Source: a virus
Strand: one strand, 5' to 3'
DNA: 40,881 nt
IMG/VR virus record: IMGVR_UViG_3300043540_000449
Coordinates: 1-40,881 of that record
Part shown: one piece after another, positions 1,847-15,193 of the stretch
Layout of the letters: every line of letters begins with the position of its first letter
Numbering within the stretch: position 1 is the first letter of the stretch
Made by a program: the position numbers and the translations under genes
Notes under the pieces: model-generated
What the model was told of the DNA's origin: nothing
Seen by the model: only the letters and a program-made list of their open reading frames with translations
Database searches by the model: none

Positions 1847-2161
1847 CTAATCCTGCATCCATTCAAAATATTCGTCTTTTTCAAGCGTAGTTTCGCCGTT
1901 TTTAACTGAAGCCCAAAAATTTTTAGCGTTTTCAAGCGTTCCTTTTGTTCCTGCTTTCAAGTCTGATCGAGCCGGTACTATATTTCCCCAATAATCATAG
2001 TGCCGGATCTCCGGTAAAAAACAAATACCGGCTTCTAATAAGTCTGAAGCGGTTCGTCCGGCCGTTCCTTCAAGACTCCAAACTCGGCCATTATCAATCA
2101 AATCCTGCCAATGATGATAGCCAAATTGTTTTTGTAATTGTCTTATTTGTTTTTCGGTCAT
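1847..2161 (-). CDS. small protein of unknown function (104 aa)
   Basis: The ATG at 2159-2161 is chosen over an in-frame GTG at 2170 because AAGGAGGTG sits 6 nt upstream and contains that GTG. The protein starts TEKQIRQLQKQFGYHHWQDLI and contains NGRVWSLEGTAGRTASDLLEAG, DYWGNIVPARSDLKAGTKG and a short acidic tail. It is soluble, without cysteine motifs. It resembles small proteins of phage accessory arrays in style, but I cannot name a family. A hairpin follows its stop. Confidence 0.7.
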   Translation of the reverse strand: MTEKQIRQLQKQFGYHHWQDLIDNGRVWSLEGTAGRTASDLLEAGICFLPEIRHYDYWGNIVPARSDLKAGTKGTLENAKNFWASVKNGETTLEKDEYFEWMQD

Positions 2162-2201
2162 GATGTTCACCTCCTTTTATATTTTTTTTAACTTATAATA
2201 A

Positions 2202-2372
2202 TTAAAATAAATGTTTAACATCGTTGATAATAAATTCAATATTTTTAATAGCGTTGTATAATTCCATAAATCCCTGTTTTTTTCTTCCTTCTTCATTTTC
2301 TATTTTTTGATTTTTTTCCATCAAGTCATTTAATAAATTTAAAACTAAATTTAATCTTTCTAAGACGTTCAT
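2202..2372 (-). CDS. small helical protein (56 aa)
   Basis: ATG at 2370-2372 with an excellent SD (AAAGGAGGTG, 6 nt upstream); stop at 2202-2204. The peptide begins MNVLERLNLVLNLLNDLMEK and continues as an amphipathic charged helix, probably a short coiled coil. Strong initiation signal and array position support it. No family is recognised. Confidence 0.65.
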   Translation of the reverse strand: MNVLERLNLVLNLLNDLMEKNQKIENEEGRKKQGFMELYNAIKNIEFIINDVKHLF

Positions 2373-2424
2373 TTTTTACACCTCCTTTTGATTTTTTAAC
2401 TTATAACCATTGATTATTAATTTC

Positions 2425-2450
2425 AGCCGGCTATTTTTTAATAACCGGCT
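2425..2450 (-). other. RNA hairpin H2 downstream of the 2461-2601 gene
   Basis: AGCCGG (2425-2430) pairs with CCGGCT (2445-2450) and TATT (2432-2435) with AATA (2440-2443), with a 4-nt loop. The internal pair 2431/2444 is C-A on + but G-U on the minus transcript. On the + strand the stem is followed by five T, so a second use as a rightward terminator is possible. Confidence 0.6.
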
Positions 2451-2460
2451 TTTTCAATAA

Positions 2461-2601
2461 TCAATTGATCAAAAATTCTAAGTCCTCCCTATCTTGTTCG
2501 ATCTCTTGTTCGATTGCTTCGTAGTCTTCAGCCAAAACTTTCTTTGTCTCTTCGTCGATCTTTGCTAAGTATTCTTGAGTTTCCCGATCTAAGTTTTCCA
2601 T
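2461..2601 (-). CDS. small acidic helical protein (46 aa)
   Basis: ATG at 2599-2601, stop at 2461-2463. The peptide begins MENLDRETQEYLAKIDEETK and is almost entirely glutamate/aspartate-rich helix, ending LEFLIN. No SD, but the AATAATATG start context and the TTATAAGTTAA leader match its neighbours. The strongly acidic composition is unlike the basic neighbours and could suggest a DNA-mimic or antitoxin-like role, which is speculation. Family not recognised. Confidence 0.55.
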   Translation of the reverse strand: MENLDRETQEYLAKIDEETKKVLAEDYEAIEQEIEQDREDLEFLIN

Positions 2602-2656
2602 ATTATTGGTATTATTTTTTAACTTATAACTTTTATTGATTGGTCCCTATTTTTCC

Positions 2657-2678
2657 GGCCGGATTTTTTTATCCGGCC
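2657..2678 (-). other. RNA hairpin H3 downstream of the 2691-3038 gene
   Basis: GGCCGGAT (2657-2664) pairs perfectly with ATCCGGCC (2671-2678) around a 6-nt loop (2665-2670), 12 nt past the stop of the leftward gene. There is no U-tract on the minus strand. Position and G+C core match hairpins H1 and H2. Confidence 0.6.
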
Positions 2679-2690
2679 TTCAAGCAGTGA

Positions 2691-3038
2691 TCAATCGATC
2701 AATAAGAATTGATTGTCGATCTCTAAGCTTATAGCCTCTTGATCAAATTCTTTTTGCTTTTCTTTCGTAAAATTTAAAACGGCCTGTAAATTTTTGTTTA
2801 GTGTCTTGTCATCCGTAAAAGATACAACCTTCGTTATATCTTCAACTATATAATGGCCGGTGCTATCCTTCCAGTAGCCTTTGGCCTGCTCTAACGTTGC
2901 ACCGCCAAATAAACCGGTAAAATAGGAAGCTACTTGATCAATCCTTTTTTTGAATTCTTGTTCAGTTGTCTTGATCCCTTTTCTTGTCGACGGCGTGTAA
3001 AAAACTACCCTATGATTAAAAGTTAGATATTTTTTCAT
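2691..3038 (-). CDS. small conserved phage/plasmid protein (115 aa)
   Basis: ATG at 3036-3038. The protein has a beta-rich start (KKYLTFNHRVVFYTPS), then FKKRIDQVASYFTGLFGGAT and AKGYWKDSTGHYIVEDITKVVSF. The FxxLFGGAT...GxW-x(5)-G-x(3)-EDxT pattern is familiar from small mobile-element proteins whose function I do not know. No membrane segment or cysteines. No clear SD; the leader has the array motif TTATAAGTTTA. Followed by hairpin H3. Confidence 0.7.
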   Translation of the reverse strand: MKKYLTFNHRVVFYTPSTRKGIKTTEQEFKKRIDQVASYFTGLFGGATLEQAKGYWKDSTGHYIVEDITKVVSFTDDKTLNKNLQAVLNFTKEKQKEFDQEAISLEIDNQFLLID

Positions 3039-3077
3039 AGTTCTATTAATTAATAACTTTTAATAAACTTATAACGG

Positions 3078-3137
3078 TTAAGCTTCTAACCTCTACCCAT
3101 AGCGCCTTTACGACTATGGGTAAAGTTAAAAGCTTAA
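3078..3137 (-). other. long RNA hairpin H4 overlapping the stop of the 3134-3328 gene
   Basis: Arms 3078-3102 and 3114-3137 form about 24 pairs with one bulge (3093) and an 11-nt loop. The inner 9-bp block TACCCATAG/CTATGGGTA is perfect. Two positions (3086/3129 and 3091/3124) are C-A on + and G-U on the leftward transcript. The stem includes the stop codon of the upstream gene, so translation to the stop would compete with folding. Confidence 0.6.
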
Positions 3138-3328
3138 TCAAGGTATGGTTTAAAACCATCTTTTCTCATGTCTTCAAGCATCACGGCGGTATATTTATTA
3201 GCTTTTTTTAAATAAGCCTGATAACATTTTTTTGAGCAAAACCACCGCCCAAAAACTATTTTTCCACAATAACATCTTGAAGGTGCTTTGAATTCTATAA
3301 CTCCCTTGACATCTTGCCAAATCTCCAT
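3134..3328 (-). CDS. small zinc-finger protein (64 aa)
   Basis: ATG at 3326-3328 with SD AGGAGGTG about 7 nt upstream. First gene of the leftward array, about 48 nt downstream of the expected start of transcription. Residues 19-40 hold CYCGKIVFGRWFCSKKCYQAY, a C-x-C...C-x3-C ribbon of the kind seen in small nucleic-acid binding proteins. The C terminus is a short helix. As promoter-proximal gene it should be the most expressed of the array. Function unknown. Confidence 0.7.
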   Translation of the reverse strand: MEIWQDVKGVIEFKAPSRCYCGKIVFGRWFCSKKCYQAYLKKANKYTAVMLEDMRKDGFKPYLD

Positions 3329-3382
3329 ATTTTTTCACCTCCTAGCTTTTTAAAGTGCTTTTTTAATTTCTTTTATACAACC

Positions 3383-3411
3383 ATTATATAGTATAATATA
3401 TGTATTGTCAA
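3383..3411 (-). promoter_or_regulatory. consensus sigma70-type promoter for the leftward small-gene array
   Basis: On the minus strand TTGACA (3411-3406) is followed by exactly 17 bp and TATAAT (3388-3383), a perfect match to both consensus hexamers. The expected transcription start is near 3376, giving a leader of about 48 nt with an SD before the first gene at 3328. A second TTGACA lies upstream at 3431-3426, without a convincing -10. Confidence 0.85.
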
Positions 3412-3663
3412 GTAGTATATATCCTTGTCAACTCCCTTTTTAGCCTCAAATGAAAGTGATTTTTTTCAATTTACAGCCTTAAAATGCTATAATTAAGAAG
3501 GAAGAAGACTAAAATATCTAGAATAGACACTATTATTTATTCGGTAGTATATATATAGCTCGACACTAATAAAAACCTAACCAATGTCACTACACTAAGA
3601 TATTTTTAGCCTCAATCTATTGAAAAAATGATAATAGGCTCAATTAATTACAAAAGTTTTTAC

Positions 3664-3757
3664 CGGATCATAAACACAGATCCGATTTACCGGAGCATAA
3701 ATTCGGAGCATAAATACAGATCCGAACGGATCATTGAATACAGATCCTTCCGGATCA
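3664..3757. repeat. interrupted-palindrome repeats, CGGATC-n9-GATCCG type
   Basis: Copies start at 3664, 3691 (half), 3704, 3727 and 3751 (half). Full units read CGGATCATAAACACAGATCC or close variants, so each is a direct repeat and also has inverted CGGATC/GATCCG ends. Spacing is irregular (27, 13, 23 and 24 bp). This looks like an array of protein-binding sites, either iterons or operators. GATC in every arm also offers Dam-type methylation sites. Confidence 0.7.
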
Positions 3758-4020
3758 ACTAGGAGAAAACTATACTATATCCCTAGTAAATGACAAAAAA
3801 AACCCTATCTAAGAAGCATGATAATATATAAATTTTATAGAAAAATGAAGAGAAGAGGTAGCATTTCTTATCTTATCCTATCTATAGTCTTATAGTAAAT
3901 AGGATAATAAATATTATTATATAACTATTGTTATTAAGTATAGTTGAAATATGTTAAAAAAGTAAATGTGCTAGAAGAATATTTCTACTTGGGTAAAGTA
4001 TGTTTTGTTGGGTCCCATAC

Positions 4021-4078
4021 TTAAACCTAAACTTAACTTAACCTAAATCTAAACTTAATCTAAATATAAATCTAAAAA
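4021..4078. repeat. degenerate TAAACY/TAAATC hexamer repeats
   Basis: About ten consecutive 5-6 bp units (TAAACC, TAAACT, TAACT, TAACC, TAAATC, TAAACT, TAATC, TAAATA, TAAATC, TAAAAA) give a strand-asymmetric tract with no G on the + strand. Such tracts can act as easily melted or strand-specific binding elements in origins; no function is shown here. Confidence 0.6.
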
Positions 4079-4136
4079 AATAGTATCTGTTTGTAATTAT
4101 GCACCTATGTATCACTAGAGAGTGTCTAAAAGGAGG

Positions 4137-4165
4137 TTGAATTTATAGATAGGCTTATATATACT
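4137..4165 (+). promoter_or_regulatory. candidate rightward promoter before the 4229 gene
   Basis: TTGAAT (4137-4142), 17-bp spacer, TATACT (4160-4165). The expected start of transcription (about 4172) falls just before the first 23-bp repeat at 4175, so the repeats would be in the transcribed leader. Confidence 0.55.
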
Positions 4166-4174
4166 ATTGGTGTG

Positions 4175-4243
4175 GTGAGCAAAATCGAACCATTATGGTG
4201 AGTGAAGCCGAACCATAAGAGTGAAATGAGACTGAAGAAAAAG
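4175..4243 (+). repeat. 23-bp direct repeats, cluster 1
   Basis: Three head-to-tail copies begin at 4175, 4198 and 4221, exactly 23 bp apart. The pattern is GTGAGyrAArycGAACCATwA; the third copy is degenerate and runs into the start of the 4229 gene. The same unit and period occur before the next gene (4464, 4487). Confidence 0.6.
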
Positions 4244-4456
4244 AAAAATATCTATCCTCGGTGTTTATCCTGTCATAAAAAGGAAATTCCCTTTCGGAAG
4301 CTGTATTCTTATGAGGGAGTAACTTTTATGGGGTCTGTTCCATTTTGGGTATGCATAAATAAAAATTGCATAAGGAGATTAAAACTGATTAGAAATAGAA
4401 AATATAGATGTGTTGGTGAGAGGTATATAGATTATTTTAAGTGGGTCACATTATAG
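4229..4456 (+). CDS. small zinc-ribbon protein (75 aa)
   Basis: The ATG at 4229 is preferred over a GTG at 4202, which lies inside the repeat array; neither has an SD. After a lysine-rich start come CLSCHKKEIPFRKLYSY near residues 13-29 and FWVCINKNCIRRL near 40-52, a two-knuckle zinc ribbon with a basic tail. It resembles the protein encoded at 40430 in cysteine spacing and in the CHxKExxFxKxY pattern. It is the first rightward gene after the control region, so a regulatory role is possible but unproven. Confidence 0.65.
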   Translation, partial: RLKKKKNIYPRCLSCHKKEIPFRKLYSYEGVTFMGSVPFWVCINKNCIRRLKLIRNRKYRCVGERYIDYFKWVTL

Positions 4457-4463
4457 CGAAATA

Positions 4464-4509
4464 GTGAGTATAATCGAAGTATAATACTGAGTTTATCGAA
4501 GTATGAAAT
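4464..4509 (+). repeat. 23-bp direct repeats, cluster 2
   Basis: Copies at 4464 (GTGAGTATAATCGAAGTATA) and 4487 (CTGAGTTTATCGAAGTATG) are 23 bp apart. They match cluster 1 in unit and period and run into the ATG at 4503. The intergenic space between the two small genes consists almost only of these repeats. Confidence 0.55.
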
Positions 4510-4919
4510 ACATAGAAGATATCCGTCTTTGGAGGTTTCGGGTAGATGATGTTATGCGGTATGAGACACCGTCTGATTATTTTGAGGAAGGGAGGGGAAG
4601 GAATACTAAAGAGGTAATCTCGGTGTATTCCAAGATAGCCAAGAAAGACCGGATATTTCTTGCCGTCCACGAACTTATTGAGCGGATTTTAATTCATTAC
4701 TGGGGATTAACCGTTTTTGATATTGACCGATTTGATATGAAAAAGGGTGGTCGGTATTACGAAGGGATGTATGGTGAGGATAAGCGGTATAAAAAAGCCC
4801 ATAAGGTGGCAACAGCGATCGAAAAGAGTTTGGTTGAAGCTATGGGAGAGGACTGGAAAAAGTATAATAAACGGGTTTTAGAAAAGAAGATACGGTGGAA
4901 AACAAAAAATAAAAGATAA
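4503..4919 (+). CDS. conserved phage protein with HELxE motif (138 aa)
   Basis: The centre reads FLAVHELIERILIHYWGL, followed by DIDRFD and, further on, YKKAHKVATAIEKSLVEAMG and DWKKY. The order VHELIE, xxDxFD, HxxAxxIExxL, DWxxY is one I associate with a phage family of unknown function carrying a metalloprotease-like HExxE. The His and two Glu are present; catalysis is not established for the family. ATG at 4503 directly follows the second 23-bp repeat, with no SD. The tail is very basic. Converges with the glycosyltransferase operon, 14 nt apart. Confidence 0.7.
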   Translation: MKYIEDIRLWRFRVDDVMRYETPSDYFEEGRGRNTKEVISVYSKIAKKDRIFLAVHELIERILIHYWGLTVFDIDRFDMKKGGRYYEGMYGEDKRYKKAHKVATAIEKSLVEAMGEDWKKYNKRVLEKKIRWKTKNKR

Positions 4920-4933
4920 AAAAGTATTCCTTC

Positions 4934-5614
4934 TTATATTGCCGAAATAAGAAATGGTCGATTATAAACTTTTGCAGGAGTGGGGTTTTCTGGTGTCCCC
5001 GAAACATAAGTTGAGCGACCTATTCCAAATCCGACATTTATTACATAGTCTTTGTTTGTTATAGCGAGTTTTCCTCCAAGAGAAGTTAATCGCAAGTGAT
5101 TGCCGTCATCGTCAACGGGGGTGATACGGGCTAAATCCTCTTTTCTAAAACAGTAGATGGAAGAAACAAAGTCGTCAACAATATTGCATTCCGCTCTCCT
5201 TTCAAGGATATTGAACCGTTTATCGTCAGGGTCGTAATGACGGTAGTTAAAGAGGGATAGGGAGACAATATCGGGGTTTGTATCCATAATCCTCACCGAG
5301 GTAGACAGCCACCCCTTTTCTTCAAAGATTAAGTCGGTATCTATCTTAAAGATAAAATCCCCTTCCGCCAGTCCCAGACAGTTCTGAAACGATCTTCCTA
5401 CTCCCCGATTTTTCCCGTTGGATACAATCAGTTTTGATATCTTTTGGTTTTTATAGTATCCGATAAGAATATCCCTGTTTATTCCCGCATCATCATTAAC
5501 TATGATTTCGGCTGGATAGTCCAAGGTATCAAGAAGTGAATTAAGGCATTGGAGAAGGAGCTCTGAACGAGTGTAGGATAAAACACACAGGCTGGCAAAT
5601 CGGGCTGCTTCCAT
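4934..5614 (-). CDS. family 2-type glycosyltransferase (226 aa)
   Basis: GT-A fold transferase predicted to move a sugar from a nucleotide sugar to an unknown acceptor. The N terminus ASLCVLSYTRSELLLQCLNSL and EIIVNDDAG form the nucleotide-binding half; the metal-binding DxD-like motif is KIDTDL, near residue 93. The C terminus is beta-rich and shorter than usual, and there is no membrane anchor. Last gene of a leftward three-gene set, 37 nt after the second. No SD is evident. Acceptor could be phage DNA, virion protein or host surface glycan; the sequence does not decide. Confidence 0.8.
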   Translation of the reverse strand: MEAARFASLCVLSYTRSELLLQCLNSLLDTLDYPAEIIVNDDAGINRDILIGYYKNQKISKLIVSNGKNRGVGRSFQNCLGLAEGDFIFKIDTDLIFEEKGWLSTSVRIMDTNPDIVSLSLFNYRHYDPDDKRFNILERRAECNIVDDFVSSIYCFRKEDLARITPVDDDGNHLRLTSLGGKLAITNKDYVINVGFGIGRSTYVSGTPENPTPAKVYNRPFLISAI

Positions 5615-5651
5615 ATTTTATGTTTTTACCTCTATCGAGCTTTATCAATTT

Positions 5652-6530
5652 TTATTGAAGCCATTGTTTTGGCACTTCCCAATTTTTAATTCCCCAGCTT
5701 GAAAAAGCCTGCCTTGTGGCGTTGATAAGATTAAAGTCTGGTTTGTCGGTATTAAAATGTTTTTTGTTTAACCTGTCTATATGCTCCTTCATACCAGAGG
5801 GGAAACGGTCTGGGGGAGTTTCGTGGTACTGGTGAAATGAGGTTAGCCGTTTGTCATAGGAGAACCTGTACCCCGCCTTCCAGAGCCGTATTCCCATTTC
5901 CCCGTCCTCAAGCCCGATATGGGTCTCATCGTCATATCCTCCGACATTAAAAAATATTTTTCTAGGGATACCGATATTTCCTCCAAAACATGCCAGTCCG
6001 TCGGAGAGATCGTTAAATGTTTCATCTGGTTTTGTTTTATCTATTTTTTGAATTCTCACATCCGCCTCTTTCATATTATTTAGTATAAAGTTACCCAATC
6101 CTTCCTGATTTCGTATATTTGCGGCAATAATTTCGGGAGACATGGGGTTCATCCAATGATACGCTCCGATAATAACCCGATTGGGGTTTTTTTCAAAATC
6201 TTCTCTGTAGTAGGATAAGGCGTGAAAGGGCAGGCAGACATCTGAGTCTACAAATACCAGCAGTTTAGAGGTCGGATCGGATATGAAGGCGGCAAGGTTT
6301 CTTGGGGTTGAGGCGTTCCATGTTCCAGATTTATGGTTATTGAAGACATAACGCAGGTTAAATACCTGTTTGAACCCTTCAACCACCCAATAGGTATCAT
6401 CGGTGGAGTTATCGTCCGAGACAATCACCTCATACTCGTTTTTAGGGAGAGACTGGGTTTGGAGGGCAAGAAGTGTTTGTCTCAGGTTTTTTGCCCTATT
6501 TCTGGTTGGAATGATGACGCTTATAGTCAT
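5652..6530 (-). CDS. family 2 glycosyltransferase (292 aa)
   Basis: Classic GT2 start: ISVIIPTRNRAKNLRQTLLA, then EVIVSDDNSTDDT, and the DxD motif FVDSDVCLP near residue 96. In the second half GGNIGIPRKIFFNVGGYD and GLEDGEMGIRLWKAGYRF match the galactosyltransferase-like C-terminal region (the ED pair is the likely catalytic base region). Size and domain order are normal for the family. Its ATG overlaps the stop of the preceding gene by 4 nt (ATGA at 6527-6530), so translation is probably coupled. Soluble, no membrane segment. Confidence 0.9.
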   Translation of the reverse strand: MTISVIIPTRNRAKNLRQTLLALQTQSLPKNEYEVIVSDDNSTDDTYWVVEGFKQVFNLRYVFNNHKSGTWNASTPRNLAAFISDPTSKLLVFVDSDVCLPFHALSYYREDFEKNPNRVIIGAYHWMNPMSPEIIAANIRNQEGLGNFILNNMKEADVRIQKIDKTKPDETFNDLSDGLACFGGNIGIPRKIFFNVGGYDDETHIGLEDGEMGIRLWKAGYRFSYDKRLTSFHQYHETPPDRFPSGMKEHIDRLNKKHFNTDKPDFNLINATRQAFSSWGIKNWEVPKQWLQ

Positions 6531-7533: not shown

Positions 7534-8040
7534 ATGAGAGACGAAATAATTAAGGGTTATGTAGTGAAATATACCGATGATAAGGGAAAATTAAGAAAGC
7601 GTAGGATAACGAAACGTCAGGTGGCTTTTGTGGAAGGACTGATGCAGGGAAAATCTCCATACCGATCCGCCTTAAATGCGGGATATACCAAAAACTCAGC
7701 GCAAGAGGTGCGAAAAGAAATTATGGCTGGTAAAGCGGTAAATGCCCTTATGGATAGTATTTCCTTGAAGGTTGAAAAACTGGGACTGACGGAGGATTTT
7801 ATCGCAAAGAAACTATGGCAATGGTTCAATTCTAAAAAAAAGATTTTTAATAAAAAGGGAGAGGTTATAGGTGAGGTTGAGAACGAGGATATTCAGATAA
7901 AAGCGTATGACAGGTGGAAAGAAAGACGGGAAAAACAGGATAAAATTAATCTCCCTGTCCGAAAGATTACCTATGAGGAGTTTATCAGAGGGGGTAAGGA
8001 AAAGGGAGAAGAAAAGGAGGACCTATCAGCAAATCCATAG
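7534..8040 (+). CDS. terS: terminase small subunit (TerS, 168 aa)
   Basis: DNA-recognition subunit of the packaging motor. The ATG at 7534 is chosen because it follows the upstream stop by 2 nt; an earlier in-frame ATG (7507) would overlap that gene. Residues 30-62 read RQVAFVEGLMQGKSPYRSA then LNAGYTKNSAQEVRKEIM, the HTH region typical of phage small terminases. A coiled segment (KVEKLGLTEDFIAKKLWQWF) and a charged C terminus follow. The position directly before TerL supports the call. Its TAG stop overlaps a possible ATA start of TerL. Confidence 0.85.
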   Translation: MRDEIIKGYVVKYTDDKGKLRKRRITKRQVAFVEGLMQGKSPYRSALNAGYTKNSAQEVRKEIMAGKAVNALMDSISLKVEKLGLTEDFIAKKLWQWFNSKKKIFNKKGEVIGEVENEDIQIKAYDRWKERREKQDKINLPVRKITYEEFIRGGKEKGEEKEDLSANP

Positions 8041-8105
8041 GGTATCAATACTATAAAAAAGCGATTGAACTGTCGTTCCTTATTGTTAATAAGGAAAATG
8101 TTGTT

Positions 8106-11100
8106 GTGCCTTTTAAGCTGAACGAGGTGCAGGATATGTTTTTGAGGGAGGCGACAGGAGCGGATATTATTCTTAAATCACGCCAGCAGGGGTTATCAAG
8201 CCTCATACTTGCCCTGTTTACGGTAGATTTTTTGACGGTTGAAAATGTAAAAAATGTGGTTATATCTCACGAGCAAAAGGCGACCATAAGACTTTTAGAC
8301 AGGGTTAAATACTATCTTAATTCTCTTAAAAAAACGTTTAAGGGTGATCCTCCATTTAATCTAAAATATAACTCACGCTATGAAATGGTCAATACCCAAA
8401 AGAACTCGGTCTTTTATATAGGGACTGCGGGGGGCAGGGCTTTTGGTCATGGAGACACCATAAACAACCTGCATTTTTGTCTATCAGAGAACAATATGGT
8501 TATTGGACACAATGGTTTTGTTGACAAAATTAATAGTCTTGGAACATTAACCAAAGATGTCAGAACTGGAACGGGGTGTTTAGCCGAGGTTAAATGTCTT
8601 TCGAAAAAGACAACTAAAAAATTGGGGCACGACCACTTATTGAGTATAAAAAGTTTTGGCAACCAATCTCTTCCGCTAGAAGTAACCCCAGACCATAAAA
8701 TTCTTACCAGGGAATTTAAGACAGGAAAACCTGTTTGGAAACGGGCTGATGAATTAACAAAGAAAGACTATATTGGTTTTCCTTTGAACAACCCTAGTCA
8801 TAAAGTTAAATTTTTTCGGGTAGATTATGTAAAAGGATATAAATCTGGAGTAAAAACATTTCAGCATACACTATCTCTAAATTATGATTTAGGTTTATTA
8901 AGTGGATGGTATTTGGCGGAAGGCAGTATTATCAAGGCTAAGTATGGATTTAAAGGATTTATTTTATCTGTAGATACTGATGAGGAAAAAGAAATTAAAA
9001 ATTTAATTAACAAGTTTAGTGATTTGATTCAAAGCGTAGGCGTGTCTATAAATAAAAACAGTAGAAGTAAGAATATTAGGATTTATTCTCGTCCCCTTGG
9101 GAAATATCTAATTGAGTTGTTTAACGAAAAGGATGGTAAAAATATTCCAGATGTAGTATGGAATTATCCAAGAGAATTTCTTTTAGGTTTAATTAAAGGG
9201 TTGATTTTAGGTGATGGTTCAATCAAAGAATCGAGAAGCGTTAGCTTTTCTTCGGTAAGACCACAGCTTGTAGTTCAACTAAAAAGACTCTTAATTTCTC
9301 TAAGAATCGGTTATCCATCAATTAATATAACTCCTGCGTCTAAAAAGTGGAATCGTAACAATAGAGAGAGATGGACACTTATACTTTTTGGTTCGGCAAA
9401 TATAAAATTAAGGAGAATACTTGGGTGGAAGATGCCAGATTTTAAAACACACCCTGTTTTGAGAAAAAGACATTCCAATTGGAATTTCGGACGCAAAGAT
9501 TGGCGGAGGGGTAAAGATTATTATTGGTCGAAAATAACATCTATAGAACAAATTGAAGCTCCAAAATTTGTTTATGATTTGGTTTTGGAACACCCTTGTC
9601 ATTCTTATACTACAGTATCTGGGGTTGTGCATAATTCGGAGATCAGTCGTTACCAGGATGCCGAACGAATTTACACGGGAGTTATTCAGGCGGTCCCAAA
9701 AGACGGGCGTATCATAATCGAAACCACGGCCAATGGTTACGGAAATTTCTTCTATAAGCTCTGGAATAAAAATGTCAGGGGAGGAAGTTATACTAATCAT
9801 TTTTTCCCGTGGTTTAGGTCAAAAGAATATACGCTCCCCGTACCGAAAGGGACAGAATTTACCGAAGAGGAGTTAAAAATTGCCGAGAAGTATGGACTTA
9901 CCAGAGAACAGCTCCAGTGGAGAAGATGGAAGATTGAACAGTTAAACGGGGATGTTGACCGCTTTAATGAGTCGTTCCCCGCAACGCCAGAGGAGGCATT
10001 TATCGTATCAGGAAATCCCGTTTGGAGTTCAAGTTTAATGAAAGAGTATCTTTTGCGGGTAAAAAAGCCGATGGTGGTTGGCAATCTGGTCGGGTATAAT
10101 AAAAATGTAACGGTTGAGCGAAATGAGAAAGGATACTTAAAGATATATAGGAAGCCGCAGGAGTTTCACCGTTATGTAATCGGAGCGGATGTTGCCGCTG
10201 GGAAAATGATCTCCAGCGAAGGAGATCTGCCAGATACCGATTATTCCTGCGCCCAAGTAATTGACGCCAATACATTGGAGCAGGTGGCGGTATTTCATGG
10301 ACGGATCGACCCCGATATGTATGGTCGTCAGCTTGAACTTTTGGGGACGCTTTATAATAATGCTCTTATTGCGGTTGAACGGAACTCTTTAGGTTTGGCT
10401 ACGCTTATCACCCTTCGTGACTTATATTATCCAAATATCTATTTTAAGGAACAGTTCGGTCTTATTGCCGAAAAGACAACTTCGGAAATGGGTTGGGAAA
10501 CAACCTCCGAAAGCAAGGGACTTATGATCGCCGACACAACACGGCTTCTTCGGGAAAAAAGGTTAGTCATTTATGATGAGGAAACGATAGGAGAAATGAT
10601 GTCGTTTGTCAGAACCCCATCTGGTCTTGCCGAAGCAATTCCTGGAGCTCATGACGACAGATGTTTTATAGCGGGAACTAAAATACTGACAAGTAGGGGT
10701 CAAATAAACATAGAAGATATAAAAGTTGGGGATTTGGTAATGACAAGAAAGGGATACAAACCAGTAGTAGCTACTGGTTTAAGGTATGACTATGTCATTG
10801 AAAATAAGGCATTACATCTTATAGGAACACCAGATCATCCTATAATTACTAAAACTGGCACTTCAAGGCTTGACAACATTAAAGCAACTGATATACTATA
10901 CATATGGAACGAGAAACTATCATCTATCGAGGAAAGAAGTATCACCGATATCCTCAATCAAAAAGAAGACAGTTACAAGTCTATTTCTGGAGGCACGATA
11001 AATGGAAATCTCCCCCCTTTGCGCTTCATAGACAAATTTGGATTGACCACTTTGGGAAGATCCCTAAGGGATATATTATTCATCATAAAGACGAAAATCC

Positions 11101-11672
11101 TCTTAATAACACTATCAATAATCTTGAATGTATTTCGGTTAAAGAACATAATGAAAAACATTTTACAGAAGAGAGAAAACAAAGGAGTATTGAGAATGGT
11201 AAAAGGCAAGCTGACCGTCTTGTTAAACAACTTAGAGAATGGAGAAAAAATAATCCAGAAAAAGCAAGAGAAATATATCGGCAGAATGGGAAAAATCAAG
11301 CTCAGAGAGCCGTTAAGACACTTGCCGAATGGAGAAAGAATAATAGAGAAAAATTCGAAAGAATATGTAGAGAAAATGGTAAAAAACTCAATCAGTGGAT
11401 GTGGGGGAAAAAGAGCGGTTTATAATCTAAAAGTAGCTGATTGCCCCGAATACTTTGCTAATAATATACTTGTTCATAATTGTATTGCCTATATGATTGC
11501 ATTACAGATGATTGGAAAGCCACAAGCCCGTCAGAGAGGAAATGAGATTGAGAGGCAGGATTTGGGAAGTGAGATTTTTTATATCAACAATGTTCCCTTT
11601 AATAAGGAAGGACAACCTATAAATCCAGAAGATAGTATGGACGTTTCAAATAATGAGGATTTTGTTTTTTAA
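8106..11672 (+). CDS. terL: terminase large subunit (TerL) precursor with two inteins
   Basis: ATP-driven DNA packaging motor and nuclease. The Walker A variant KSRQQGLSS lies at residues 24-32. Walker B is split by intein 1 (INNLHF joined to SEIS), followed by coupling motif IIIETTANGYGN. The RNase H-like nuclease shows VIGADVAAG, IAVERNSLG and GAHDDR, the last split from CIAYM by intein 2. Removing inteins (residues 125-510 and 853-1125) leaves about 529 residues, normal for TerL. The GTG at 8106 is the only standard start, but the frame stays open to 7998 and family-like sequence (LSFLIVNKEN) precedes it. The real start may be ATA 8037, which overlaps the TerS stop. Confidence 0.95.
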   Translation: MPFKLNEVQDMFLREATGADIILKSRQQGLSSLILALFTVDFLTVENVKNVVISHEQKATIRLLDRVKYYLNSLKKTFKGDPPFNLKYNSRYEMVNTQKNSVFYIGTAGGRAFGHGDTINNLHFCLSENNMVIGHNGFVDKINSLGTLTKDVRTGTGCLAEVKCLSKKTTKKLGHDHLLSIKSFGNQSLPLEVTPDHKILTREFKTGKPVWKRADELTKKDYIGFPLNNPSHKVKFFRVDYVKGYKSGVKTFQHTLSLNYDLGLLSGWYLAEGSIIKAKYGFKGFILSVDTDEEKEIKNLINKFSDLIQSVGVSINKNSRSKNIRIYSRPLGKYLIELFNEKDGKNIPDVVWNYPREFLLGLIKGLILGDGSIKESRSVSFSSVRPQLVVQLKRLLISLRIGYPSINITPASKKWNRNNRERWTLILFGSANIKLRRILGWKMPDFKTHPVLRKRHSNWNFGRKDWRRGKDYYWSKITSIEQIEAPKFVYDLVLEHPCHSYTTVSGVVHNSEISRYQDAERIYTGVIQAVPKDGRIIIETTANGYGNFFYKLWNKNVRGGSYTNHFFPWFRSKEYTLPVPKGTEFTEEELKIAEKYGLTREQLQWRRWKIEQLNGDVDRFNESFPATPEEAFIVSGNPVWSSSLMKEYLLRVKKPMVVGNLVGYNKNVTVERNEKGYLKIYRKPQEFHRYVIGADVAAGKMISSEGDLPDTDYSCAQVIDANTLEQVAVFHGRIDPDMYGRQLELLGTLYNNALIAVERNSLGLATLITLRDLYYPNIYFKEQFGLIAEKTTSEMGWETTSESKGLMIADTTRLLREKRLVIYDEETIGEMMSFVRTPSGLAEAIPGAHDDRCFIAGTKILTSRGQINIEDIKVGDLVMTRKGYKPVVATGLRYDYVIENKALHLIGTPDHPIITKTGTSRLDNIKATDILYIWNEKLSSIEERSITDILNQKEDSYKSISGGTINGNLPPLRFIDKFGLTTLGRSLRDILFIIKTKILLITLSIILNVFRLKNIMKNILQKRENKGVLRMVKGKLTVLLNNLENGEKIIQKKQEKYIGRMGKIKLREPLRHLPNGERIIEKNSKEYVEKMVKNSISGCGGKRAVYNLKVADCPEYFANNILVHNCIAYMIALQMIGKPQARQRGNEIERQDLGSEIFYINNVPFNKEGQPINPEDSMDVSNNEDFVF
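8478..9635 (+). mobile_element. intein 1 in TerL with LAGLIDADG endonuclease (386 aa)
   Basis: Protein-splicing element. The first residue is Cys (CLSENNMVIGHNGF). Block B is LEVTPDHKILTREF. The C-terminal blocks are FVYDLVLEHPCHSYTTVSG ending VVHN, with Ser as the +1 extein residue. Two dodecapeptide motifs, LLSGWYLAEGSI and LLGLIKGLILGDGSI, mark a LAGLIDADG homing endonuclease. It interrupts the Walker B motif, a typical conserved insertion site. All splicing residues (Cys1, TxxH, His-Asn, Ser+1) are present, so it should splice. Confidence 0.95.
10870..10897 (+). promoter_or_regulatory. promoter inside intein 2 for the nested HNH gene
   Basis: TTGACA (10870-10875), 16-bp spacer, TATACT (10892-10897), then 6 nt to the HNH ATG at 10904. 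It lies within the intein coding sequence. The geometry equals that of other leaderless promoters here (for example before 11721 and 30442). Confidence 0.6.
10904..11425 (+). CDS. HNH homing endonuclease nested out of frame in the TerL intein (173 aa)
   Basis: Complete gene with ATG and TAA, lying wholly inside the intein 2 reading frame but shifted. The N-terminal YRGKKYHRYPQSKRR is followed by the HNH core: ALHRQIWIDHFGKIP, GYIIHHKDENPLNNTINNLE and EHNEKH, near residues 40-88. This is the HNH type found in phage intron and free-standing homing enzymes. The C terminus has two copies of an EWRKNNxEKxxxIxxxNGK unit, a likely DNA-binding extension. A promoter-like sequence lies 6 nt upstream and there is no SD. 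It probably mobilises the intein or itself. Confidence 0.85.
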   Translation: MERETIIYRGKKYHRYPQSKRRQLQVYFWRHDKWKSPPFALHRQIWIDHFGKIPKGYIIHHKDENPLNNTINNLECISVKEHNEKHFTEERKQRSIENGKRQADRLVKQLREWRKNNPEKAREIYRQNGKNQAQRAVKTLAEWRKNNREKFERICRENGKKLNQWMWGKKSGL

Positions 11673-11685
11673 TTTAAAAATATAC

Positions 11686-11713
11686 TTGACAAAGCATATA
11701 TTTGCTATATCAT
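11686..11713 (+). promoter_or_regulatory. promoter before the 11721 gene, leaderless geometry
   Basis: TTGACA (11686-11691), 16-bp spacer, TATCAT (11708-11713), 7 nt to the ATG at 11721. It sits in the short gap after TerL and would drive portal-region transcription. Confidence 0.6.
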
Positions 11714-11720
11714 TTATTAT

Positions 11721-12113
11721 ATGATTGAAATTATTGCTTTGCTGGCGGCAGTTGTTTTTTTCTTCTTTCTTTACCATAAGTATTTTATTGAAACGGAGTT
11801 CAATAATTTATTTCATTTTATTGATAGTATAGATAAATCCGTTACATTATCTGGGGAAGAAAAAAAGAAAGAAAATGAAATCATTAAAGGAGAGATAAGC
11901 GAACTTAAAAAAGAACTCAAAATAGTATCAAAAGAACTGTCTGAAAAATTAGAGAATATAACTAAAAAAATGGTTGTGTATGAGGAAAATGAAATTGAGA
12001 AAAAAGAGAAGGAGGAAGTTCCCTTAAGTGAAGAATACCGCATTCCCATTGTTGATGGGATGAAGGTAAAATTTGAAGGGGATGATAAAACATACCCCAT
12101 TAAAATTGAATAA
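11721..12113 (+). CDS. small membrane-anchored coiled-coil protein (130 aa)
   Basis: Residues 3-19 (EIIALLAAVVFFFFLYH) are one transmembrane segment. Residues 45-95 form a charged coiled coil (KKENEIIKGEISELKKELKI and onward), and the C terminus is a short beta-type tail (YRIPIVDGMKVKFEG). It lies between TerL and portal and ends 5 nt before the portal ATG. A predicted leaderless promoter precedes it. Function unknown; a membrane role in entry or assembly is possible. Not a recognisable spanin, since no lipobox is present. Confidence 0.7.
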   Translation: MIEIIALLAAVVFFFFLYHKYFIETEFNNLFHFIDSIDKSVTLSGEEKKKENEIIKGEISELKKELKIVSKELSEKLENITKKMVVYEENEIEKKEKEEVPLSEEYRIPIVDGMKVKFEGDDKTYPIKIE

Positions 12114-12118
12114 TTAGT

Positions 12119-15100
12119 ATGAGTAAAAAAGAAGATAGAAAAAAAGACCCAGTTCCAGAAGTTTTGAAGGAAGTGCAGGAGCTTCGTGAACAGCAGGATT
12201 TCCTTGCCCGTGGAAAAAAGCTCCTCCAAAACGCTCAAGATGCCAGACGAAGGTATGATTATGAGTGGATGGTTCGTGATTTATTCAGGCGTGGATACCA
12301 ATTCTCCCGCTTTCAGCCAACAACCCAAACCGTTATATTGTCTTCTCGTCAACAGGCAAAAATTCCCATTAACTTGGTTGCGGCTCAACTTCGTTCCATT
12401 AGAAACCAAGCGACCGCCTTTAGACCAAAATGGGAAGTTGCTCCTCGTTACCAAACTGAAGAAAGTAAAGTGCAGGCTCGCTATACTCAACAGCTTCTTG
12501 ATTATCTTTTTGATCACTTAAAATTAAAGACGCTAATTAAAGAAACAGTTACTCAAGGACTGATTTTTTCGGTGGGGGGTCCGTGGGAAGTAACCTATGA
12601 CGAAGAAAAAGATGAAGTACGGGTTTGGCTGCTTGATCCTTTTGATTTTTATATTGACCCGTTAGCCGAGTCGGTTGACGATTCCGAGTTTTGTATCAAG
12701 GCGGTACGAAGACCATTATCCGAGGTATTGAATAATCCTTTATTTAATGAGAGGGCGAGGAAAGAAATTGGGGGAGCAGAAGCCCGTCTAGCTATGAGCG
12801 AATATAAGCAGTTTATTATTCAGTCAATGCGGATTGTTTCCCAAAGAACTTACGATATGAACGAAAGCATTATTTTATTTGATGGGTCGTTTAAGGTAAG
12901 AAAAGACGGAAAAGTTAATTTGCGAAGAATGGTTTGGACAGATCAAAATATCACTCCATTAATTTGGGAGCTTAGAGATGATGAAGAATATGATTATGTT
13001 ATATATCGTGCGGACTTAAATCCAAAAGAAATATACGGGGAAGGATGGATGAAACATGTTATGCCAATTAACCGTGTAATAAACAATCTTGAATCTTCGG
13101 TTTTTGAATATAATACAAGAGTTGCCAAGGGAAGAATTGTTGTTGATAAAGACAGCGGAGTTCGGGCTATTCATAATGTTCATGGAGAAATTATTTCAAA
13201 GGTTCGGGGAACTGAAGTCAGGGCTCTTGATATGCCTTCACTTCCTATAGCTGTTTCCACTCAGATTGAACGAATGAACCAATATCAGCAGGATATTGGA
13301 GCGGTGCATGATTCTTCGCTTGGAAGAATACCTGTTGGAGCAAGAAGCGGCTTGATGGTTGCGGAACTTAAGCAAAGCGATAGCTGTGTTGACATTGAGA
13401 CAGAGGCTCTAACAAAGAGAGGTTGGAAAAAATATAACGAGATTTTAGATGGAGAAGATATTTATTTACTCGACCCAAAAACGAAACAATCAAGGTGGGG
13501 CAAAGTAAACTGGATTTACTGGAACGATAAGGAAGAAGCCGAGATGTATGTGGCTAAAACGAAAACGATTTCTTTTCTTACAACTCCAGATCATTCGTGG
13601 ATGACCGTGAACGTCAGGGGCAATTGGAAAAAAGAACAGACACAAACACTTAAAAATGATCAATATATTCCTTTAGCGGTTAAAAATGGTCAAATTCCCG
13701 TAAAAAAAATGTATTCAGATGATTTTGTGCGGTTAGTTTCTTGGGTTATAACTGAAGGAACATATAATGGAATTAGCAGAAGAGATAAGAAAAATGGAAG
13801 TCTGGAAATAAGGATTTATCAGGCAGAGAAAAATATGGACAAAGTTGAGAAAATTAAAGAATTATTTTCCCGATTAAAGATTAATAGAAAACCGTATGTT
13901 GGAAAAATAAGAGGGAGCACTCGTTGTTGGACATTTAGTTTTGCAAAAGATTATGCTAAACAAATAAGGGAACTTTTCCCGACCAAAAGTTTGACGATAG
14001 ACTTTGTTTCTCAATTAACCGAAGACCAATTACATATTCTTATTGATACGATGATTTTGGGAGATGGATATGAAGAAGCTGTAAATAAAGGAAGAAGAAG
14101 TTTTATTAATACAAATAAGGAAACGATTGACGCTTTTCAATTCGCCAATACCTTACTTGGAGTTCCAACCGCTGTAAGTAAAAAAACAAGAGAGAGAGAA
14201 CATTGGAAAACCTGTTATGTTGTTTATCTTAAAAATAATCCAAAGGTATCGGTAGGCAATCTTCTGAATGGAAAACTAAAAAAAATCAAATTTACAGGAA
14301 GAATATGGTGTCCAAATACTGAAACGGGTTATTGGTTAGCAAGAAAAGACGGAAAGGTCTTTTATACTGGCAACACCGGACAGCAAGACATCACCGATAA
14401 CTTGGAGGACTTTTTGGAGGAAGTAGCCCGAAAGATATTAAAAAAGATTGCCAAACATTATACCTCTTACCATGTTATTAGAAATCTTGGCTATCGGGAT
14501 GAAGACGCAAAGTATTTTGCAGTGGTGGGAGAGTCGTCGAAGAAAAAGGGTTCAGCCGATATAAAACATAAAGGACAGGTGAAAATAGGCCCCGACTGGC
14601 TTGACCTTGCGATTATTGGAGAGGACACCCATGTTAAAGTTAGTATCGGAAGCTGGCTTGGATACACGAAAGAAATTATGGAGCAAAAGATATTGAAGTT
14701 TGCCGAGATTGGTTTAATAGACCAAAAAACTGCTTTGAAACTGTTGGAGTTTGGCAACATTGATGAGATTGTTAAACAAACGAGGATTGAAAGTTTGCTA
14801 AAAAAGAGTATCCAGTCGGGGAACATGAACCAAAACCCCGAAGAAGACCAATATGGGTTGGCGTTAACGGAAAACGAAATGATGGTAAATGAGGATAAGG
14901 ATATGCCTGTTGATCCCCATGATGACCATTATGTCCATATTGCCCTTCATCAAGAGGCTTTAGGAAAAGGAAGAGACGACCTTGTTGGAAAACATATTCA
15001 AATTCACCAATCATACTTGGGGCAGTCAACCGAGCAAATTCCTAATCAGGCTCAAGGGACTCAATCAGTTACCCCGCCTCAAGGCGGTCAAATGCCACCG

Positions 15101-15193
15101 CCAACGCCAAACGGAGCATCAATGATAGGTGGCGGAGGGGGAATGGGAATGCCGACTATGCCTCAGGGACAGGGAACAGTTCCGATACAATAA
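12119..15193 (+). CDS. portal protein precursor with one intein
   Basis: Forms the dodecameric DNA channel at one head vertex. Extein features are a charged N-terminal helix, YEWMVRDLFRRGYQFSRF, then PINLVAAQLRSIRNQATAFRP and WEVAPRY, a DPFDFYIDPLA motif, and NRVINNLESSVFEYNTRVAK, which fit the P22/podovirus-like portal class. The intein interrupts residues 423-752; the extein is about 694 residues, a normal size. The C terminus is Gln/Gly/Pro-rich and flexible. The start ATG has no SD and follows the upstream stop by 5 nt. Position directly after terminase supports the call. Confidence 0.9.
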   Translation: MSKKEDRKKDPVPEVLKEVQELREQQDFLARGKKLLQNAQDARRRYDYEWMVRDLFRRGYQFSRFQPTTQTVILSSRQQAKIPINLVAAQLRSIRNQATAFRPKWEVAPRYQTEESKVQARYTQQLLDYLFDHLKLKTLIKETVTQGLIFSVGGPWEVTYDEEKDEVRVWLLDPFDFYIDPLAESVDDSEFCIKAVRRPLSEVLNNPLFNERARKEIGGAEARLAMSEYKQFIIQSMRIVSQRTYDMNESIILFDGSFKVRKDGKVNLRRMVWTDQNITPLIWELRDDEEYDYVIYRADLNPKEIYGEGWMKHVMPINRVINNLESSVFEYNTRVAKGRIVVDKDSGVRAIHNVHGEIISKVRGTEVRALDMPSLPIAVSTQIERMNQYQQDIGAVHDSSLGRIPVGARSGLMVAELKQSDSCVDIETEALTKRGWKKYNEILDGEDIYLLDPKTKQSRWGKVNWIYWNDKEEAEMYVAKTKTISFLTTPDHSWMTVNVRGNWKKEQTQTLKNDQYIPLAVKNGQIPVKKMYSDDFVRLVSWVITEGTYNGISRRDKKNGSLEIRIYQAEKNMDKVEKIKELFSRLKINRKPYVGKIRGSTRCWTFSFAKDYAKQIRELFPTKSLTIDFVSQLTEDQLHILIDTMILGDGYEEAVNKGRRSFINTNKETIDAFQFANTLLGVPTAVSKKTREREHWKTCYVVYLKNNPKVSVGNLLNGKLKKIKFTGRIWCPNTETGYWLARKDGKVFYTGNTGQQDITDNLEDFLEEVARKILKKIAKHYTSYHVIRNLGYRDEDAKYFAVVGESSKKKGSADIKHKGQVKIGPDWLDLAIIGEDTHVKVSIGSWLGYTKEIMEQKILKFAEIGLIDQKTALKLLEFGNIDEIVKQTRIESLLKKSIQSGNMNQNPEEDQYGLALTENEMMVNEDKDMPVDPHDDHYVHIALHQEALGKGRDDLVGKHIQIHQSYLGQSTEQIPNQAQGTQSVTPPQGGQMPPPTPNGASMIGGGGGMGMPTMPQGQGTVPIQ
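13385..14374 (+). mobile_element. intein in the portal gene with LAGLIDADG endonuclease (330 aa)
   Basis: Begins CVDIETEALTKRGWKKYNEI (Cys1), has LTTPDHSWMTVN as block B and ends WLARKDGKVFYTGN, followed by Thr as +1 residue of the extein (TGQQD). The penultimate residue is Gly rather than His, a variant known for inteins with the GKVxxTGN ending. Dodecapeptides LVSWVITEGTYNG and LIDTMILGDGYEE show a LAGLIDADG endonuclease. It splits the portal between ELKQSDS and TGQQDITDN. Confidence 0.93.

Follow-up and report, generated by a model that had tools for sequence, protein, structure and literature searches.

In the usual description an intein is a single polypeptide, with the homing endonuclease in frame with the splicing domain. 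How, then, should an intein be understood whose middle carries a complete nuclease gene in another frame? The question is raised by the terminase large subunit gene (terL) of IMG/VR virus record IMGVR_UViG_3300043540_000449, of which positions 1 to 40,881 were analysed (the window, 40,881 nucleotides in full). The second of the two inteins in this terL (intein 2) has a complete Hint splicing domain in the TerL frame; overlapping its middle, in the −1 frame, is an open reading frame (ORF) for an HNH endonuclease. Intein 2 is very probably a mobile intein with its splicing and nuclease functions written in two overlapping frames, both under selection. The features of the locus are listed below; pLDDT is the predicted local distance difference test score of the structural models.

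8106..11672, + strand: terL host ORF, 1188 residues, taken from the ORF list, with PHROG terminase large subunit matches to the exteins.
10662..11480, + strand: intein 2 in the TerL frame, 273 residues from C1 to N273, with Pfam Hint_2 and Intein_splicing matches.
10662..10940, + strand: N-terminal splicing segment, residues 1-93, with C1 and the block-B TxxH at T56/H59; pLDDT ~94-98.
10892..10903, + strand: leader of the HNH ORF, whose frame opens 12 nucleotides upstream of the ATG; tatactatacat; no Shine-Dalgarno match.
10904..11425, + strand: HNH_3 homing-endonuclease-like ORF, 173 residues, with its own ATG and TAA, in the −1 frame relative to TerL.
10941..11408, + strand: host-frame linker, residues 94-249, open, mostly of low pLDDT.
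11409..11480, + strand: C-terminal splicing segment, residues 250-273, ending YFANNILVHN, modelled with high confidence.
11481..11483, + strand: Cys+1, the first C-extein residue and the nucleophile required for splicing, read from the sequence.

The terL ORF is free of stops throughout 8106-11672, across both inteins, and TerL exteins flank the element; with one uninterrupted host ORF, the locus is neither a split intein nor a fractured gene. Intein 2 is inserted after ..GAHDDR, the HDD motif of the TerL nuclease domain, with the junction GAHDDR^CIAYM. Its C1 starts at 10662, its C-terminal HN ends at 11480 and Cys+1 begins at 11481, which bears out the boundaries drawn in an earlier note made from the sequence alone. 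The catalytic set of an intein is complete (C1, T56/H59, H272-N273 and Cys+1). Across a 61-member alignment C1 and T56 are near-invariant and H59 is invariant, while C1 is present in 92 and Cys+1 in 90 of 94 relatives. The HNH ORF is offset from terL by (10904-8106) mod 3 = 2, that is, it lies in the −1 frame, where Pfam HNH_3 matches at 8e-16, above the cut-off; H42, H60, H61, N69, N73, H82 and H86 of the HNH are invariant in 61 sequences. The ORF list and Pfam thus agree with the earlier note that a complete HNH ORF lies in the −1 frame inside an open TerL. The last codons of this ORF overlap the start of the C-terminal splicing segment, and both frames are coding there.

The arrangement is not peculiar to this virus. 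When the viral collection was searched for relatives of the HNH, the five best each proved to lie inside another TerL in the same arrangement. A set of 165 loci or records was then scanned with profiles of the HNH and of the N- and C-splicing parts, and HNH and Hint were found together in 113 of them. Nested copies numbered 109. They represent 94 non-redundant loci, which group into 71 clusters at an HNH identity of 70% and into 21 at 50%. All 109 had offset 2, the −1 frame, where a canonical intein would have its endonuclease in frame. None of the 109 had the HNH fused in frame with the host, a count made without a positive control for fusion detection and with the best 80 of 471 HNH relatives kept, so that more distant in-frame fusions could escape it. 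The related HNHs continuing in frame that the earlier note had named as grounds for rejecting the arrangement therefore did not turn up among the nested copies. No locus had its splicing halves on different host-frame segments, and thus none is interrupted. In a sample blind to the HNH, obtained by two single-sequence scans with the N-splicing segment as query in its place, 23 non-redundant inteins carried an HNH of the family, at offset 2 in all and in frame in none; one additional locus gave a very weak (15-bit) match at another offset, and the other Hint matches were without an HNH of this family. The host genes are TerLs of many families, and members occur in bacterial phages and in one haloarchaeal plasmid. 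Offset 2 is shared by the named records Acinetobacter phage Highwayman, Tetrasphaera phage TJE1, Rhodobacteraceae phage LS06-2018-MD07 and Halobacterium plasmid pGSL19_54.9. The HNH is unannotated in all four; it is missed by gene finders that forbid long same-strand overlaps.

Is the host frame open by chance? The earlier note had expected a stop about every 15 codons and had concluded that the openness must be selected. Its expectation was overstated for the window locus. For a host stop to appear in the −1 register, an HNH codon must either end in TA and precede A or G, or end in TG and precede A, so that only Leu, Ile, Val and Met codons can produce one, and only before A or G. The conclusion of the note was upheld by a null model, in which the HNH protein was fixed and synonymous codons were randomised by the codon usage of each locus's exteins. 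The chance of an open host frame was then 8.6e-4 at the window and had a median of 2.3e-3 across loci, and the frame was open in 94 of 94 loci as against 1.8 expected, although kinship among the loci means that products of these probabilities are not to be read as independent. A control within the gene agreed. Ile ATA was absent from all 452 positions where it would have made a host stop and was used at 143 of 476 where it was harmless; Leu codons ending in TA occurred at 0 of 457 stop-making positions versus 114 of 322 elsewhere, and Val GTA at 0 of 262 versus 70 of 327. ATG before A accounted for none of 135 Met codons in nested HNHs versus 23 of 41 in free-standing relatives, which themselves contain between 3 and 17 stops in the equivalent frame. 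On average 19 stops interrupt the third frame, and none of the 94 loci has it open; these ~19 stops come from the HNH protein's own codons and, by closing that frame, explain why the HNH is always in the −1 frame. Openness of the host frame is far beyond chance, although −1 is the intrinsically easy frame for such a protein.

Evidence of mobility comes from occupied and empty sites. Inteins need Cys, Ser or Thr at +1 for splicing. In the TerL family of locus L064, 76 alleles are empty at the exact intein site and all have Pro+1, whereas in 3 of the 79 the site is filled by an in-frame insert of exactly 888 bp, followed by Cys+1 in each case; the 3′ flank of these three is unlike that of the empty alleles. 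The change from Pro to Cys+1, seen in invaded alleles alone, argues in favour of splicing as well as of co-transfer of the flanking sequence. In 57 pairs of loci across the family, the HNHs are more than 60% identical while the N-exteins share less than 30%. A horizontal transfer read from the pair L031/L123, on the strength of matching inteins beside diverged exteins, was dropped, given a left flank near-identical over ~600 nucleotides and a near-identical right flank; the two are the same lineage with an upstream mosaic block.

The same distribution bears on what the nuclease is for. HNH proteins encoded close to terminase genes have been proposed to act, for example, in DNA packaging, and free-standing relatives of this HNH adjoin terS, terL or portal genes in phages BP10, PAE1, SN1 and EauM-23; the protein might therefore serve the phage rather than the homing of the intein. 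We consider this unlikely, since the element is sporadic among close TerLs (3/79) and spread over TerLs unrelated in their N-exteins, as a mobile element would be.

Separate expression of the HNH, predicted in the earlier note, is favoured at the level of the family. In 93 of 94 loci the HNH begins at a start codon, and its frame usually opens no more than a few codons earlier, at a median of 12 nucleotides upstream. Shine-Dalgarno matches of at least 5 bases accompany 31% of HNH starts and 7% of control positions, and slippery heptamers at frame entry occur in 4 loci, 3.9 being expected. From the own start codon, the short upstream opening, the Shine-Dalgarno enrichment and the lack of an excess of slippery heptamers, we infer internal initiation in preference to frameshifting. 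Programmed −1 ribosomal frameshifting from TerL, which would yield a fusion of the N-splicing segment with the HNH, gains some appeal from the invariable −1 position of the nuclease, but that preference is more simply due to the stops of the third frame. Together with the small room that the opening before the ATG leaves for a shift, the unenriched heptamers and the conserved, Shine-Dalgarno-enriched starts make it very unlikely.

The two frames are constrained in different ways. Differences between near pairs of loci fall on HNH codon positions 1, 2 and 3 in proportions of 26, 20 and 54%, much as those in the N-splicing segment fall on the positions of its own frame (26, 19 and 55%). Identity between relatives in the overlap is 82-98% in the HNH frame and 67-97% in both the host frame and the third frame; the excess of the HNH frame over both others indicates that the nuclease is constrained as a protein and that the linker is mainly kept free of stops. 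The amino-acid sequence of the linker is apparently not conserved for itself, judging by these identities. At the end of the ORF, the HNH stop overlaps the 30-residue C-splicing block in 92 of 94 loci, so that the nuclease ends in codons that are also read as part of the splicing domain. By these sequence statistics, purifying selection is shown to act on both frames: on the HNH protein in one, and on the absence of stops and on the splicing ends in the other. A −1 frame unconserved among homologues, which the earlier note had listed as a second ground for rejection, was not what we found; the frame is conserved, with a protein-like pattern of substitution.

These results leave little of the proposal that the HNH is the dead relic of an in-frame endonuclease, shifted by compensating indels within what is now a plain splicing intein. 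Inteins with an in-frame HNH_3 do exist, such as that of the cyanophage CL131 dCTP deaminase, which was shown to self-excise (PMC6293099). A dead frame, however, would accumulate stops, and 94 diverse loci retain the catalytic residues, the substitution pattern, the start codon (93/94) and a complete ORF; a relic is hardly credible. As a separate observation on the linker, two PHROG profiles, phrog_35162 and phrog_30251, align in L034, L073 and L100 to what the HNH gene encodes when read in the host frame; phrog_35162, listed as of unknown function, may therefore represent a nuclease gene translated out of frame.

Structural models were made of both proteins. In the AlphaFold2 model of the host-frame intein, residues 1-93 and 250-273 scored ~94-98 in pLDDT, and the stretch that separates them mostly 41-77; the splicing parts are thus predicted to form a Hint fold, with a linker of low confidence in its middle. 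Foldseek matched this model to the gp41-1, RecA and DnaB inteins in the PDB, gp41-1 being the nearest solved intein to intein 2. The HNH model had a mean pLDDT of 93. Its sole PDB sequence match was I-HmuI (1U3E, E 1.8e-4), also the top fold match of the model, though weak (E 0.066). I-HmuI is encoded by a group I intron; the HNH domain is common to both nucleases, but no intron was found at the window locus. Splicing competence and DNA cleavage are predictions, well supported by the conserved catalytic residues, the modelled fold and the switch from Pro+1 to Cys+1. The least credible explanation is that the insert is a group I intron removed as RNA, or a non-splicing insertion tolerated in the protein like the ShiLan element of mycobacteriophage DNA methylases (Arsenault, Gosselin and Gogarten 2025, PMC11855218): ShiLan likewise has an out-of-frame HNH and an open host frame, but here the host frame holds a complete Hint domain with C1, TxxH, terminal HN and Cys+1, Cys+1 is confined to intein-bearing alleles while empty alleles all have Pro, and an Rfam search of 8000-12200 found no family at gathering scores, which counts against a group I intron.

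Several observations weigh against a mobile intein with two selected frames. The HNH ATG of the window and those of its nearest relatives have no Shine-Dalgarno match; of the long ORFs in the window, 7 of 28 have one of at least 4 matched bases, so most lack it. The three intein-bearing alleles of the L064 family have a common downstream region and may thus represent few independent events. Hint and HNH distances are weakly correlated (rho 0.21), such that nuclease swapping and noise are inseparable. Finally, the comparison of TerLs with and without the intein that the earlier note had proposed succeeded in the L064 family, with its exact insert and empty alleles, but a search for an intein-less close relative of the window's own TerL found none.

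With two overlapping frames as the preferred reading, the order of events in an infected cell would be as follows. Ribosomes on terL would make a precursor in which both ends of the insert come together as a Hint domain, and this would splice itself out. The excised intein would carry, as an inert linker, a ~150-residue frame-shifted reading of the nuclease gene. Other ribosomes, as the start-site sequences suggest, would initiate within the same mRNA at the nuclease start and produce a free HNH endonuclease from the −1 frame. The HNH would then cut intein-less terL, and repair from an intein-bearing copy would spread the intein.

As to origin, mini-inteins in the TerLs of Microcystis phage Mic1 and archaeal virus vir335 resemble intein 2 in TerL region, Hint domain and Cys+1, and no nuclease ORF was found in any frame within them. 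Such nuclease-free mini-inteins and the terminase-adjacent free HNHs suggest that an HNH gene entered a mini-intein. In the fuller scenario, to which we would give an even chance, intein 2 belongs to a widespread, so far unannotated intein class of bacterial and archaeal viruses. The class would have arisen through the invasion of a nuclease-free mini-intein by a free-standing HNH gene of the terL-adjacent kind; the gene entered in the near-stop-free frame, and its frame-shifted reading became a new, tolerated protein segment, leaving splicing and homing to two proteins from one stretch of DNA.

The closest precedent that we found is ShiLan, which also has its HNH ORF in another frame, adds no host stop on insertion, and has its own start, a stop at the end of the insert and a disjunct distribution (PMC11855218). 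It differs from the terL element in its methylase host and in having no splicing domain, being thought to remain in the protein, whereas the terL element has a complete Hint domain and recurs in about a hundred loci. Canonical inteins likewise have their endonuclease between N and C splicing segments, and TerL is a common host; but their nuclease is in the same polypeptide, as stated for CL131, and that of intein 2 is a separate overlapping ORF. Mycobacteriophage TerL inteins splice, cut DNA and are located in the ATPase domain (PMC5050341), as opposed to the nuclease HDD motif occupied by intein 2. An intein that has both a complete splicing domain and an overprinted HNH gene was not found in the literature searched, where the ShiLan papers are the sole precedents; subscription journals were mostly outside the search and an earlier report is possible. 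Dassa et al. are said to have described in 2009 'fractured genes', split inteins whose two halves flank a separate endonuclease gene. In these, too, splicing and nuclease are separate proteins from one locus, but intein 2 is contiguous, its host gene is unfractured and its nuclease is overprinted on the linker.

Splicing and nuclease have been uncoupled by overprinting, repeatedly, in one of the most conserved phage genes. With this element the origin of long overlapping genes can be studied in a clean system, one that is present in isolated phages and hence testable, and it bears on the possible origin of ShiLan-like insertions.

Other loci added detail on hosts and sites. Out-of-frame HNH inteins lie early in TerL in L073 (1827-4043), L054 (3300-5756) and L097 (3372-5753), that of L073 being placed in the region of the ATPase domain; the arrangement is therefore not tied to the HDD site. 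A single TerL in L087 (1165-4398) has two inteins at two sites, with an out-of-frame HNH ORF in each. The TerL reading of L001 (1872-5898) is divided over the overlapping ORFs 1872-3230 and 3223-5898 and includes several intein segments, which may reflect a split gene, a frameshift or a sequencing error. Two N-exteins (alignment A3) have a DegT/DnrJ/EryC1 aminotransferase match upstream of the intein; non-TerL hosts or fused ORFs are possible. In L257 (MT835477), a methylase-like ORF with a Hint domain (2204-3736) is overlapped over 437 codons by an open frame at 2403-3713, which is in a different register and was assigned to no family.

The window holds two further inteins. The first TerL intein (8478-9635, 386 residues) runs from C1 to HN, followed by Ser+1, and has LAGLIDADG_3 in frame; it is a conventional intein, in contrast with intein 2 inside the same gene. 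A third, of ~330 residues (13385-14374), lies in the portal gene (12119-15193) and runs from C1 to N, followed by Thr+1; its Intein_splicing match is weak.

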